From Microlunatus elymi (GTDB lineage: Bacteria > Actinomycetota > Actinomycetes > Propionibacteriales > Propionibacteriaceae): 64,000 bases of DNA. Below the pieces are notes generated by a model that was not told the DNA's origin, made no database searches, and saw nothing but the letters and a program-made list of their open reading frames with translations. The position numbers and the translations under genes are program-made. Where the stretch lies: positions 3,720,001 through 3,784,000 of the forward strand of contig NZ_CP041692.1 in NCBI RefSeq assembly GCF_007362775.1. Reading direction: 5' to 3'. Shown here piece by piece: positions 24,245 to 64,000 of this stretch. Within the stretch, counting starts at the first letter, position 1; every line of letters starts with the position of its first letter.

Positions 24245-24283
24245 TCTCGGCCACCGCTGAGGATCGGATCCGCGGGACAAAAT

Positions 24284-24505
24284 CCAGCACGTGCCGGAGA
24301 GTACCGACCCCGGACCCCCGCCGACGCCCCAAAACCCAGCACGTGCCGGAAAATCCCAACCCCAGACCCCCGCCGACGCCCCAAACCCAGCACGTGCCGG
24401 AAAATCCCAACCCCAGACCCCCGCCGACGCCCCAAAACCCAGCACGTGCCGGAAAATCCCAACCCCAGACCCCCGCCGACGCCCCAAAACCCAGCACGTG
24501 CTGGA
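24284..24505. repeat. Tandem 52-bp repeat array with palindromic core
   Basis: Units begin at 24284, 24336, 24387, 24439 and 24491 (spacing 52, 51, 52, 52); the fifth is partial. Each starts with CCAGCACGTGCCGG, continues AAAATCCC, then a C/A-rich stretch ending GACGCCCCAAAAC. The last copy has the perfect 14-bp palindrome CCAGCACGTGCTGG. Units 2-4 are almost identical and unit 1 diverges. There are no unique spacers, so this is a minisatellite and not a CRISPR array. A related array with the same 52-bp period lies between kdpA and kdpB at 62312-62510. Confidence 0.95.
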
Positions 24506-24603
24506 AAGTGGGCGTTCGGAGCCGGCGCGGGAAGACGGCAGCTACAACTCCTCAGAGGGCGGCCGTGCTGGCGCGCTCCGGGGGTAGGCGTAGTTGCGTT
24601 CGA

Positions 24604-56589: not shown

Positions 56590-56671
56590 CGACTCCCTTC
56601 GCTGGCATTACCCAGATCAGGTCTGAGGGTCTGCGGTTACCCGCACTCTCAGCGCTCTGCGCTCCCCTGTC
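56590..56671 (-). ncRNA. TPP riboswitch (THI element)
   Basis: On the minus strand the conserved blocks appear in order: ACAGGGGAGC, GCTGAGAGTGCGG, ACCGCAGACCCTCAGACCTG, ATCTGGGTAATGCCAGCG and AAGGGAG. These are the P1-P5 helices and TPP-binding loops of the THI box. It is about 60 bp before ykoE, so thiamine pyrophosphate is expected to shut down the ykoEDC operon. Confidence 0.96.
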
Positions 56672-56857
56672 GTTCTGAACAAATGGTCGTTCTGAACAAA
56701 TGTTCGTACTGAACTGATGCTTCTTCATGCAGTTGTGGTGGCCCTTCGGGCAGCATCCGAACCTACCACCGTCGGCTCAGCTGCACCCGACGGGTCCTGA
56801 GCGGTTGATCCTCGGCAGGAAGCACGAGTACACCCGAGGACAGGTACCGTTGCTCGG

Positions 56858-57661
56858 GTGTCTGCAGCGGATCCGGAGTTCGACCCCGCGCCTTCGGTCG
56901 CGCCCGAACGGGTCGAGGCCGATCCGAACGACCCAACATCCGACACCGACAGCGCCGCCGACGCCGCCGAGGAGCCGCGGCAGAAGGAATGGTGGGAGGA
57001 CGCCAAACTGCCGTGGAAGGGCAAGCCACGGCGCGAGGACATCCTGTGCTGGATCGGTTTCTCGCTGAGCGGAATCATCGGGCTGATCATGATCCCGCTG
57101 CGGCCGGTGCTGCTGGGCAGCGCGCCGCTGGCGCTGGTGGCGATCACCGGCTCCCGATCGGGTCTGGTCACCATCGGCGCGTTGTCGGCCGTCGGCCGCG
57201 CAGACTGGTGGTTGGTCGGGCTGATCCTCGGCATCGTCAGCTGCGTGAAGTGGGATCCGCTGTTCTGGTGGGCCGGGAAACTCTGGGGTCACGGGCTGAT
57301 CGAACTGGTCGCCGGTCGCTCCAAGTGGGCGGCCCGAAACGCCGGCCGGGCCGAAGCGCTGGCACGGCGGTACGGCGTACCGGCGATCCTGCTCGCCTAC
57401 GTCGTACCGCTGCCCGCGGCGGTGATCTACGCGACGCTCGGGATGGCCGGTATGCGGCTGCGGAAATTCCTGATCGTCGATCTGATCGGCTCGGCGATCA
57501 TCTGCTCGCTGTGGATGTTCCTCGGCCATCAGCTCGGCCAGTCGGCGGTGAACGTCGTCGACCTGATCGCCCGCTACTCCGGCTACATCTCCATCGGCCT
57601 GCTGGTGCTGATCATCGGCCAGGCCGTCTGGCGCGCGAAGCGTCGCGCTGCGCGCGCCTGA
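56858..57661 (+). CDS. DedA-family/SNARE-associated membrane protein
   Basis: 267 residues from the GTG at 56858. The first ~55 residues are acidic and low in complexity. The membrane domain has GRSKWAARNAGRAEALARRYG-type loop, then VPAILLAYVVPLPAAVIYATLGMAGMRLRKFLIVDLIG, matching the VTT/DedA re-entrant helix motif. Such proteins act in lipid or undecaprenyl-phosphate trafficking; the exact role is unknown. The C-terminus (KRRAARA) carries the first of three 24-bp-spaced repeats. GAGGACAGG is about 16 bases upstream. Confidence 0.82.
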   Translation: MSAADPEFDPAPSVAPERVEADPNDPTSDTDSAADAAEEPRQKEWWEDAKLPWKGKPRREDILCWIGFSLSGIIGLIMIPLRPVLLGSAPLALVAITGSRSGLVTIGALSAVGRADWWLVGLILGIVSCVKWDPLFWWAGKLWGHGLIELVAGRSKWAARNAGRAEALARRYGVPAILLAYVVPLPAAVIYATLGMAGMRLRKFLIVDLIGSAIICSLWMFLGHQLGQSAVNVVDLIARYSGYISIGLLVLIIGQAVWRAKRRAARA

Positions 57662-57709
57662 ATCAATCGCGCTGCGCGCGCCTGAGCAGATCGCGCTGCG
57701 CGCGCCTGA
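57643..57709. repeat. Three 24-bp-spaced direct repeats at the 3' end of the DedA gene
   Basis: The 19-bp sequence TCGCGCTGCGCGCGCCTGA occurs exactly at 57643-57661, 57667-57685 and 57691-57709. The first copy includes the last codons and TGA stop of the DedA gene. Each contains alternating GC runs able to form hairpins. Confidence 0.92.
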
Positions 57710-57751
57710 GCGAACAGCCGCACCCGATATGTGCCGCCGCTACCGGTATTT

Positions 57752-60279: not shown

Positions 60280-60414
60280 ATGCTCGACCTGATCTACATC
60301 ATCGGCACGCTCGGCTTCTTCGTGATCGCCGGACTGTTCGGCCGAGCCCTGGAACGAATCGGCGGCGACGATCACGCAGCCGAGAGCGGTTCTCGGGGAA
60401 GGAACACGCGGTGA
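60280..60414 (+). CDS. Small one-segment membrane protein ahead of kdpF
   Basis: 44 residues: MLDLIYIIGTLGFFVIAGLF then GRALERIGGDDHAAESG. One N-terminal membrane segment and a polar tail. The TGA overlaps the kdpF GTG as GTGA, so it is translationally coupled to kdpF. It is an actinobacterial type of small protein seen upstream of kdpF; its function in the Kdp system is unknown. No strong ribosome-binding site precedes the ATG. Confidence 0.65.
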   Translation: MLDLIYIIGTLGFFVIAGLFGRALERIGGDDHAAESGSRGRNTR

Positions 60415-60497
60415 CCATCGAGAACCTGATCGGGTTCGCCATCGCACTGGTGCTGCTGGCCTACCTGATCTTCAGCCTGCTCCACCCCGACCGCTGA
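60411..60497 (+). CDS. kdpF: Potassium-transporting ATPase subunit KdpF
   Basis: 28 residues (MTIENLIGFAIALVLLAYLI then FSLLHPDR), one membrane segment with the ending LxxPDR/E typical of KdpF. The start is a GTG overlapping the upstream small gene. KdpF stabilises the KdpABC complex. The gap to kdpA (62 bp) contains two CTTGATCAA copies and AGGTG as ribosome-binding site. Confidence 0.88.
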   Translation: MTIENLIGFAIALVLLAYLIFSLLHPDR

Positions 60498-60559: not shown

Positions 60560-62215
60560 ATGTCTGACCTGATGCCCGGACTGCTCCAGCTGGCCATGTT
60601 GCTGGTGCTGGTCGGCGGGAGCTATCTGTTGCTGGGCTCGTACATGGCCCGGGCTTACAGTTCGCCACGGCATCTGGCGGTGGAGAAGTTGATCTACCGT
60701 ACGCTGCGGATCGATCCCGACGGTGATCAACGCTGGGGCGTCTACTACGCGTCCGTACTGGGCTTCTCCGCCGCCGGAGTCCTGTTCCTGTACGGGCTGC
60801 TGCGGCTGCAAGGACTGCTGCCGTTGAGCAACAACACCCCGGGCTTCGATCCGGCACTGGCGTGGAACACGGCGGTGTCCTTCGTCACCAACACCAATTG
60901 GCAGGCCTACCCCGGCGAAAATCTGGGATACCTGGCCCAGATGGCCGGCCTGGCCGTCCAGAATTTCGCGTCAGCGGCGGTCGGCATGTGCGTTGCGGTG
61001 GCGCTGATTCGCGGGCTGGCCCGATCACGTACCGACCGGCTCGGAAACTTCTGGACCGACCTGGTCCGCAGCGTGATCAGGATCCTGCTGCCGATCTCGA
61101 TCGTGGTCGCGGTGATGTTGATCTTGACGGGGGTGGTGCAGAACTTCGCCGGACCCGAGACCGTGCACACGCTGGCCGGCGGCAGTCAGACCCTTCCCGG
61201 CGGCCCTGTCGCCTCTCAGGAGGTGATCAAACAGCTCGGCACCAACGGCGGCGGCTTCTACAACGCCAACAGCGCGCATCCGTTCGAGAATCCCAACCCG
61301 GTCAGCAATCTGATCGAGATCGCGCTGATGTTGATCATCCCGGTCGGTCTGGCCAGGACGTACGGGCTGCTGGTCGGCAGACCGGCCAACGGTCATGCGG
61401 TGCTGGCGTTCATGGGCGTGCTCTGGCTGGCCGGACTGGTGATCATGTGGATCGCCGAGTCGGCCCACGGCGGAATCGCGGCCGGAGCCGCCGGTGCCGC
61501 CATGGAGGGGAAGGAGGTTCGATTCGGGATCGCCGGATCCGTGCTCTACAACAACACCTCCACCGGCACCTCGAGCGGCCCGGTCAACGCGATGGGCGGC
61601 AGTTTCACCGCCCTCGGCGGCGGCATGATGATGTTGAACATGATGCTCGGCGAGGTCTCACCGGGCGGCACCGGCTCCGGTCTGTACGGAGCTCTGTTGA
61701 TGGCGATCATGGCCGTCTTCCTGGCCGGCTTGATGATCGGGCGGACGCCGGAGTTCCTCGGCAAGCGGATCGGCCGCCGGGAGATCAGCTATGTCGCCCT
61801 CTACACCCTGGCGATGCCGGCCATCCTGCTGGTCGGGGCGGCCGTCGCATCGATCAACCCGGCCGCGCTGGCCTCGCGTAACAACTCGGGATCGTCCGGC
61901 CTCAGCGAGATCCTGTACGCGTTCGCCTCGGCCTCCAACAACAACGGCTCCGCCTTCGCCGGGCTGAGCGCGAACACCTACTTCTACAACACCATGCTCG
62001 GCTTCTGCATGCTGATCGGTCGCTTCATCCTGATCGGTCTGGTGCTCGCACTGGCCGGCTCGTTGGCCGGTCAGGTCAGGCGGCCGGTCTCCGGCAGTCT
62101 GCCCACCCACACGCCGCTGTTCGTCGGCCTGCACGTCTTCACCGCCTTGATCGTCGCCGGCCTGACCTTCTTCCCCGCCCTGGCCCTCGGTCCGATCGCG
62201 AGTGCGGTCTCATGA
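60560..62215 (+). CDS. kdpA: Potassium-transporting ATPase subunit KdpA
   Basis: 551 residues. The four pore-loop selectivity segments are recognisable: VSFVTNTNWQAYPGE, QLGTNGGGFYNANSAHPFENP, SVLYNNTSTGTSSGPVNAM and AFASASNNNGSAFAGL. About ten membrane helices in all. KdpA is the K+-binding channel-like subunit of the high-affinity pump. Its stop overlaps an ATG (ATGA) that opens the repeat-containing frame before kdpB. Confidence 0.97.
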   Translation: MSDLMPGLLQLAMLLVLVGGSYLLLGSYMARAYSSPRHLAVEKLIYRTLRIDPDGDQRWGVYYASVLGFSAAGVLFLYGLLRLQGLLPLSNNTPGFDPALAWNTAVSFVTNTNWQAYPGENLGYLAQMAGLAVQNFASAAVGMCVAVALIRGLARSRTDRLGNFWTDLVRSVIRILLPISIVVAVMLILTGVVQNFAGPETVHTLAGGSQTLPGGPVASQEVIKQLGTNGGGFYNANSAHPFENPNPVSNLIEIALMLIIPVGLARTYGLLVGRPANGHAVLAFMGVLWLAGLVIMWIAESAHGGIAAGAAGAAMEGKEVRFGIAGSVLYNNTSTGTSSGPVNAMGGSFTALGGGMMMLNMMLGEVSPGGTGSGLYGALLMAIMAVFLAGLMIGRTPEFLGKRIGRREISYVALYTLAMPAILLVGAAVASINPAALASRNNSGSSGLSEILYAFASASNNNGSAFAGLSANTYFYNTMLGFCMLIGRFILIGLVLALAGSLAGQVRRPVSGSLPTHTPLFVGLHVFTALIVAGLTFFPALALGPIASAVS

Positions 62216-62553
62216 TCACCGAACCCGGACCCTCCCCGTCCCCTCGCCCCTCGCCAACCTTCCAGCACGATCCGCAGTCTGACCCGCGATCCGACACCGG
62301 CGGCCCAATTCCCAGCACGAGCCGGATTCTGGCCGCCCCAACCAACCCCGTACCAGGAAATTTCCAGCACGAGCTGGATTTTCCGACCCCAAACCGGCCA
62401 ACCACCCCAGAAAATCCCCCACGAGCTGGATTCTCCGACCCCGACCCCGCCACCCACCCCAGAAAATCCAACCCGAGCGGGAAATTCCGAGGGTGGCGGG
62501 CGACCCGGACTCGGCGCCGACCAGACCAAGATCAATTTCGGAGTATGACGTGA
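62212..62553 (+). CDS. Repeat-derived open frame bridging kdpA and kdpB
   Basis: 113 codons (MITEPGPSPSPRPSPTF...). The ATG overlaps the kdpA stop (ATGA) and the TGA overlaps the kdpB GTG (GTGA). It is Pro-, Ser- and Asp-rich without a membrane segment or known domain, and most of it reads through the 52-bp repeat array at 62312-62510. It may be expressed and keep kdpA-kdpB translation coupled, or be an accidental frame through an insert. No homologous subunit exists in standard kdp operons. The kdpB start also has its own GGAG six bases upstream. Confidence 0.45.
   Translation: MITEPGPSPSPRPSPTFQHDPQSDPRSDTGGPIPSTSRILAAPTNPVPGNFQHELDFPTPNRPTTPENPPRAGFSDPDPATHPRKSNPSGKFRGWRATRTRRRPDQDQFRSMT
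62312..62510. repeat. Second array of the 52-bp repeat family, between kdpA and kdpB
   Basis: Diverged units begin at 62312, 62364, 62416 and 62468, exactly 52 bp apart. The core CCAGCACGAGC[C/T]GG corresponds to CCAGCACGTGC[C/T]GG of the 24.3-kb array, and both flank GGATTTTCC or its complement GGAAAATCC. Copies here vary more than at 24.3 kb. Palindromic cores let each copy fold as a hairpin. Confidence 0.88.
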
Positions 62554-64000
62554 CCACAACCCTGACCAGGCCGGAGACCGAGCACCTGCCGCATCGGCAC
62601 ACGCGTCCCCCGGCGACGTTCGGCCCACGACAGCTGGTCCGCAACCTTCCCGCGGCTGCGCGCAAACTCGACCCGCGGACCATGATCAAGAACCCGGTGA
62701 TGTTCGTGGTCGAGGTCGGCGCCGCGGTCAGCAGCGCGTTCACGGTCGCCCACTCCAGCCTGTTCGGCTGGCTCGTGGTTGGCTGGCTCTGGTTCACGGT
62801 GATCTTCGCCAACCTTGCCGAGGCGGTCGCCGAAGGGCGAGGCAAGGCGCAGGCCGACACGCTGCGAGCGACCACCAGCGAGACGCTGGCCAGACGGCTG
62901 AGCGGCGACGTCGAGCAACGGGTTCCGTCCTCCGAGCTGAAGATCGGCGACCGGGTGGTGGTCGAGGCCGGCCAGTTGATCCCGGCGGACGGTGACGTCG
63001 TCGAGGGTGTTGCCAGCGTTGACGAGTCGGCGATCACCGGGGAATCGGCGCCGGTGATCCGCGAGTCCGGCGGTGACCGATCCGCGGTCACCGGAGGAAC
63101 TACCGTGTTGTCGGATCGGATCGTGGTCAAGATCACCGCCGAGCCCGGCTCCGGTTTCGTCGACCGGATGATCGCCATGGTGGAAGGCGCGGCTCGACAG
63201 AAGACGCCAAACGAGATCGCGCTGAACATCTTGTTGGCCTCGCTGACGATCGTGTTCCTGCTGGCTGTGGTGACGCTGCAGCCGTTCGCCGTCTACTCCG
63301 GCCAGGCACAACCCGTGATTGTGTTGATCGCGCTGCTGGTCTGCCTGATCCCGACCACCATCGGTGCGCTGCTGTCCTCGGTCGGCATCGCCGGCATGGA
63401 CCGGCTCGTCCAGCACAACGTGTTGGCCACCTCCGGCCGGGCGGTCGAAGCAGCGGGTGATGTGAACACCCTGCTGCTGGACAAGACCGGCACGATCACG
63501 TTCGGCAACCGGCGTGCGGTCGCGCTGTATCCGGCAGCAGGCGTCAGCATCGAACGGCTGGCCGACGCCGTGCAGCTGTCCAGCCTGGCCGACGAGACGC
63601 CCGAGGGACGTTCGATCATCGATCTGGTTCGGGATCGGTACGCGCTGCCGGACCGATCCGCCGACGCGTTGCCGGCCGCAGAGTTCATCGGGTTCAGTGC
63701 CCAGACCCGGATGAGCGGCGTCGATCTTCCCGACGGTCGCCGCATTCGCAAGGGAGCGCCGAGCTCGTTGCGCGCCTGGGCAACCGAGTCCGGAGCGACG
63801 GGCACGTCCACGATCGGCGACACGGTCGCGACCGTCTCGGCCAAGGGCGGTACGCCGCTCGCCGTCGGCGTCGCACAGGACAACCGCGCCGAGGTGCTCG
63901 GGGTGATCGAGCTCGCCGACGTCCTCAAGCCCGGGATGGCCGAACGCTTCGCGGAGCTGCGTCGGATGGGTATTCGTACGGTGATGATCACCGGCGACAA
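62550..64000 (+). CDS. kdpB: Potassium-transporting ATPase subunit KdpB (3' end cut by window end)
   Basis: The GTG at 62550 (GGAG six bases upstream) opens at least 483 codons, running off the window. The N-terminal extension (LTRPETEHLPHRHTRPP) is followed by RNPVMFVVEVGAAVSSAFTV, the actuator motif SAITGESAPVIRESGGD, the transmembrane LVCLIPTTIGALLSSVGIAGMDRL and the phosphorylation motif LLDKTGTITFGNR. The visible end is VMITGD in the P-domain. It is the ATPase motor of the K+ pump. The kdpC gene and any kdpDE lie outside the window. Confidence 0.97.
   Translation, partial: MTTTLTRPETEHLPHRHTRPPATFGPRQLVRNLPAAARKLDPRTMIKNPVMFVVEVGAAVSSAFTVAHSSLFGWLVVGWLWFTVIFANLAEAVAEGRGKAQADTLRATTSETLARRLSGDVEQRVPSSELKIGDRVVVEAGQLIPADGDVVEGVASVDESAITGESAPVIRESGGDRSAVTGGTTVLSDRIVVKITAEPGSGFVDRMIAMVEGAARQKTPNEIALNILLASLTIVFLLAVVTLQPFAVYSGQAQPVIVLIALLVCLIPTTIGALLSSVGIAGMDRLVQHNVLATSGRAVEAAGDVNTLLLDKTGTITFGNRRAVALYPAAGVSIERLADAVQLSSLADETPEGRSIIDLVRDRYALPDRSADALPAAEFIGFSAQTRMSGVDLPDGRRIRKGAPSSLRAWATESGATGTSTIGDTVATVSAKGGTPLAVGVAQDNRAEVLGVIELADVLKPGMAERFAELRRMGIRTVMITGD

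Follow-up and report, generated by a model that had tools for sequence, protein, structure and literature searches.

The insertion target of MIRUs is a DTGA site, and the elements carry DTGA-type ends. In the part of a 2025 review cited here (PMC12548453, citing Supply et al. 1997), MIRUs are described as inserting at start codons, with an internal ORF coupled at -4 to the gene, an arrangement that probably limits harm; an example is the MIRU between senX3 and regX3, a repeat likewise situated at a start codon within an operon and containing an ORF with -4 coupling. The cited portion of PMC4213456 names MIRUs of 77 and 53 bp and attributes promoter activity to the senX3-regX3 region.

A similar arrangement is found between kdpA and kdpB of Microlunatus elymi, within a 64,000-nucleotide stretch of contig NZ_CP041692.1 (positions 3,720,001 to 3,784,000, here called the window; coordinates below are those of the window unless given as genome positions). 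The features concerned are as follows.

24278..24507, + strand: second array of the same ~52-bp repeat family, in a gap between predicted convergent genes
60411..60497, + strand: small membrane ORF of 28 aa, read from the sequence, which we take to be kdpF-like
60560..62215, + strand: kdpA (Pfam PF03814, E 4.3e-209)
62194..62211, + strand: tail of kdpA, the position of the kdpB ribosome-binding site in relatives, decayed here (anti-SD duplex -2.8 kcal/mol)
62212..62215, + strand: ATGA, the kdpA stop with a likely relic of the ancestral kdpB start (in-frame start, ATGA or GTGA, at this place in 187/244 distinct junctions)
62212..62553, + strand: relay frame of 113 codons, probably not a protein gene
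62253..62490, + strand: insertion of ~4-5 palindromic repeat units of ~52 bp, degenerate in sequence, with cores near 62266, 62312, 62364, 62416 and 62468
62540..62543, + strand: GGAG, likely the present kdpB ribosome-binding site (anti-SD duplex -6.1 kcal/mol)
62550..64000, + strand: kdpB, start GTG 62550, extending beyond the window end (Pfam E1-E2_ATPase and Hydrolase)

The layout described in the initial annotation is confirmed: the kdpA stop (TGA, 62213-62215) and the kdpB start are 334 bp apart, the insert holds a frame of 113 codons whose ATGA start overlaps the kdpA stop and whose GTGA end (62550-62553) overlaps the kdpB start, and the spacer consists mostly of 52-bp repeats, with 62363-62490 called as a tandem array and degenerate units carrying it back to ~62253. 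The segments between the cores repeat too, as whole 52-bp units (94% and 81% matches), and a CRISPR-like array was rejected for this reason. A known structured RNA in the spacer was likewise rejected, the two matches obtained (E 0.44-0.46) lying far under gathering scores, and the plasmid collection searched gave 0 matches to the spacer. Upstream in the same operon, a further 4-base overlap, GTGA, joins the end of a small hydrophobic ORF (60280-60414) to the start of the kdpF-like one.

The likeness to MIRUs is evident at both ends of the insert, with ATGA at 62212-62215 and GTGA at 62550-62553 both being DTGA sites, and the frame 62212-62553, which ends on the kdpB start, has the layout of -4 coupling to the downstream gene. 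In contrast to the 77- and 53-bp MIRUs in the cited part of PMC4213456, the units here are ~52 bp and palindromic, and whereas promoter activity is described there for the senX3-regX3 region, a simple scan of the insert revealed no sigma-70-type promoter. Furthermore, a relay frame was seen in 0/5 of the other repeat clusters between co-directional genes (first 40 nt checked, gene ends rough), the nearest case (L245) being a frame that runs from a GTG on the stop and falls 10 nt short of a weakly predicted start. Judged by layout and published description, the kdp insert would act like a MIRU insertion, and it is not classed as a MIRU because of these five clusters.

Termination-reinitiation pairs offer a second comparison, with kdpA and kdpB of most relatives resembling such pairs in having a -4 overlap and a ribosome-binding site inside kdpA. 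Junctions were surveyed in genome sets holding one genome per species, with 293 loci examined, 261 usable, and 244 distinct (17/261 rows being duplicates). The 32 loci dropped comprise 18 with no KdpA end, mostly paralogous ATPase loci and some truncated, and 14 with no KdpB match passing the filter, 10 of which show an ordinary kdpA-kdpB distance by coordinates; in one dropped locus (L316, genome G332) the only KdpB match listed lies on the opposite strand in another part of the contig. At least 124 kdpA rows came from other families, one per genome with second copies left out, and 120 of the 124 sequences were taken in; 16 of the 124 rows had no listed kdpB row and G332 had no same-strand pair, with none of the 107 further pairs in a distance screen (63-201 nt) having a long kdpA-kdpB spacer. 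Among the literature matches listed for kdpA-kdpB coupling, nothing was relevant.

An in-frame kdpB start on the kdpA stop, giving a 4-base overlap, is present in 187 of the 244 distinct junctions (97 ATG, 90 GTG), and in 9 of the 13 other distinct junctions of the same genus. A one-base overlap is seen in 23/244, the first in-frame kdpB start lies within 15 nt in 31/244, and it lies further away in 3/244, the window included. The wide gap, which had been called unusual, proves so by measurement: in the window, KdpB residue 50 lies 481 nt beyond the kdpA stop, the largest value found, compared with 68-353 nt (median 146) in the 243 others. With GTG 62550 as the start, 147 nt lead to residue 50. 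This equals the median for the 187 overlap junctions and argues for a full-length kdpB downstream of the insert; the alternative start GTG 62493 was not adopted, since with GTG 62550 the N-terminal length matches the median of the relatives. Given the same overlap in 187/244 junctions and a full-length kdpB, both “coupled ends” are best read as remains of one ancestral overlap, and on sequence grounds the ATGA and GTGA ends look like relics of a single ATGA overlap split by insertion.

The ribosome-binding sites are consistent with such a split. Site strength was expressed as anti-SD duplex energy, a rough proxy. Among overlap junctions, kdpB has its site within the final codons of kdpA, with a duplex of -4.6 kcal/mol or stronger in 187/187 (median -7.0), and comparison of these values with those of the window makes it likely that the kdpB start and its site moved together, and that the old site in the kdpA tail decayed.

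We consider it probable that a MIRU-like repeat insertion into the kdpA-kdpB overlap produced this junction, with kdpB made mainly from its own site, the 113-codon frame a by-product, and the relay weakened. Ancestrally, kdpB would have started on the kdpA stop codon in a 4-base ATGA overlap; an interspersed palindromic repeat with ~52-bp units would then have entered this overlap, and most kdpB translation would since have relied on ribosomes initiating directly at GTG 62550, an order of events that we infer. Ribosomes leaving kdpA may still cross the frame and re-start at kdpB, less efficiently, as proposed for MIRUs, and the frame would yield no functional peptide. The basis for this reading is the overlap of the relatives, the dispersed intergenic repeat, RTGA at both ends, the weak kdpA-tail site, the site before GTG 62550, and the full-length kdpB. 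Counting against it, 37 nt on the left and 59 nt on the right of the repeat units are not accounted for by the insertion, and the best KdpB match within the genus is only 71% identical, so that this genome has no close empty site. For the right flank (62480-62580), the rest of the genome offers no more than short partial matches, the best being 24-33 nt at E 0.01. If the insertion reading is correct, it illustrates how an operon junction with tight coupling can accommodate a repeat, the former 4-base overlap supplying both start and stop to a frame that bridges the two genes.

The open frame itself had been taken as a sign of selection, on the premise that 52-bp repeats would normally meet stops, and a novel Pro-rich peptide had been put forward. 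The premise is wrong, with neither consensus repeat unit containing TAA, TAG or TGA on either strand, so that both are stop-free in all six frames; across the six frames the 334-nt spacer holds 1, 1, 0, 1, 1 and 0 stops. In 20,000 dinucleotide shuffles of the spacer a given frame stays open in 29.8-32.1%, and at least one of three frames is open in 71%. As the units are stop-free and openness is expected in about one shuffle in three, selection is not required to explain an open frame. A small Pro-rich protein produced alongside the K+ pump would fit a 113-codon open frame within the operon; however, GC by codon position is flat (0.62/0.65/0.66, compared with 0.61/0.48/0.88 in kdpA), a codon-score script rates the frame at -26.7 and kdpA at +161, a Pfam search of the frame returned no match, and the repeat family has no match below E 0.03 in 19 congener genomes, among the matches scored. 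Such a protein is highly improbable, and any selected peptide from this frame is unlikely. On the sequence, the frame is best read as a by-product of repeat units that lack stops, and it should not be annotated as a gene; most likely the case tells of the spread of a repeat rather than of a new peptide.

One result speaks for the initial annotation. An out-of-frame ATG on the kdpA stop occurs at four distinct junctions, those of the window, of genomes G001 and G113, and of an Aeromicrobium MAG (L150), with frames of 113, 21, 32 and 6 codons respectively, and in all four the end of the frame coincides exactly with the kdpB start. The chance product for 4/4 is 0.0088, a post hoc value that assumes a frame probability of 1/2 and shuffled openness of 0.32, 0.85, 0.53 and 1.0. 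This pattern gives a hint of selection for keeping the frame, and counts against the explanation preferred here.

The corresponding alternative is a selected translational relay, in which ribosomes ending kdpA would initiate again at ATG 62212, translate through the insert and then re-initiate at kdpB, providing matched KdpA/KdpB output and perhaps shielding a C-rich spacer from Rho; the frame has 143 C to 76 G in its 342 nt and, if left untranslated, could act as a putative Rho attractor. In the cited part of PMC10666635, overlap is needed for re-initiation and a gap of ~20 nt nearly abolishes it in the pairs tested, hence a bridge would be useful. The 334-nt gap between kdpA and kdpB, with its weak internal site, falls outside the range of termination-reinitiation pairs (overlap or a gap of at most ~20 nt), and each end of the relay frame falls within it. 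The layout of the four ATG junctions and the MIRU precedent (as given in the cited part of PMC12548453) also favour a relay, as does the statement there that an SD is absolutely required in none of the tested pairs. According to the portion of PMC6728339 used here, an internal SD contributed in 4/5 E. coli pairs, with effects of SD removal ranging from strictly essential to none, and a weak site would therefore lower, and not exclude, re-initiation at 62212.

Against a relay, the site before 62212 has decayed to -2.8 kcal/mol whereas the other three ATG relay junctions each have a strong site of -8.8 before the relic start, kdpB has a ribosome-binding site of its own, the openness is that expected from shuffles, and the share of relays falls to 5/9 when GTG and TTG relics are added to what is a post hoc test. 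The claim of coupling at both ends therefore holds for the layout, with its 4/4 junctions and MIRU precedent, and is weakened at the upstream end by the decayed site; a selected relay is accordingly rather unlikely, and insertion with kdpB made mainly from its own site is retained as the preferred reading.

The junction of G113 provides a parallel. Its spacer (L176) holds a different interspersed repeat, told apart by eye, at the same ATGA spot; this repeat is hairpin-like (GTGGGACG ... CGTCCCC), with 90 matches to its core (E<=0.01) in G113 and 2 in the congener G112. Across 20 regions, 0/65 copies lie in predicted genes (8 nt tolerance). The G113 insert has ATGA at both ends, and G112 and G154 have an empty ATGA junction, without insert. 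As the repeats of G113 and the window differ and the site is the same, this overlap has been invaded by different repeats on at least two occasions within this family; the spacer of G001 shows no clear repeat, matching only itself and two weak sites in its genome. Two repeat families at one kdpA-kdpB site, both bridged, make the MIRU idea testable outside mycobacteria. A broader proposal, which we regard as tentative and rather unlikely, is that varied repeats repeatedly enter operon ATGA overlaps in this actinobacterial order, and that selection keeps only gene-bridging frames, as a non-peptide “ribosome relay”. If true, the relay would keep translation and Rho protection continuous across the insert, and MIRU-like behaviour would be a general route for tolerating repeats inside coupled operons.

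The repeat of the window belongs to an intergenic, palindromic family with a unit of ~52 bp, dispersed through the genome. A 28-position sequence model of its palindromic core was built from 33 copies (33 of 34 distinct cores, which stem from the 38 of 41 cores retained for A/T-rich flanks), with a consensus resembling AAWWTCCMGCACGTGCKGGAWWTT from column counts. In this genome the model gives at least 132 matches at E<=1, and in the 19 congeners at least 3-25 matches each at the same threshold among the matches scored; these counts are lower bounds, since 150 first-look candidates were scored per genome (from 4623 candidates in this genome). Owing to the palindromic core, most sites are matched on each of the two strands, and the training copies of the model, or sites like them, account for 33 of those found. 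At least 46 distinct sites were counted by hand at E<=0.01 among the matches listed, and 0/46 lie inside genes predicted by a simple codon-score script, whose gene ends are rough.

In these respects the family resembles REP/BIME elements, being an extragenic palindromic repeat that shares with them dispersed intergenic palindromes, tandem arrays and absence from predicted genes (0/46). However, the REP-associated tyrosine transposase family PF01797 has 0 matches at E<=0.001 in this genome, a control search having found it in 5/14 genomes, and RAYT-driven REP mobility is rejected for this reason. The number of sites, at least 46, compares with a usual count of more than 100 REP copies per genome in the cited part of PMC2817692. 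Among the literature matches listed, nothing relevant was found on intergenic repeats in Microlunatus, nor anything on this insertion among those for REP elements inside operons.

A REP-like role is nevertheless conceivable at the level of mRNA, with the repeat acting as a hairpin element between cistrons that tunes kdpFA against kdpBC levels. The units are palindromic and the spacer folds at -99.8 kcal/mol (z -2.98), with 0/100 shuffles as stable, so that a hairpin effect on mRNA is possible; however, a simple scan found no intrinsic terminator or terminator-like site in the insert, and 14 of the 20 family clusters, counted by hand, lie between convergent (10) or divergent (4) genes, which does not indicate a role specific to kdp. 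The remaining six, kdp included, lie between co-directional genes. This alternative we judge unlikely.

Further ~52-bp copies lie at genome positions 3788803-3788881 and 3790265-3790591, a few kb downstream of kdpB and beyond the window end, so that this part of the chromosome holds several clusters. At L230 (genome about 550300-550550), a second repeated motif, CCCGGGTGGAAAACGAACG-like by eye, stands beside a ~52-bp cluster. Other repeats in the window include tandem repeats at 56669-56714 (17 bp, 2.7 copies) and 57643-57711 (24 bp, 2.9 copies). The 9-mer CAAGATCAA occurs 14 times in the window, compared with 0.17 expected from shuffles; by eye, the flanks of its copies share no longer sequence, and one copy, at 62527-62535, ends 14 nt before the kdpB start.
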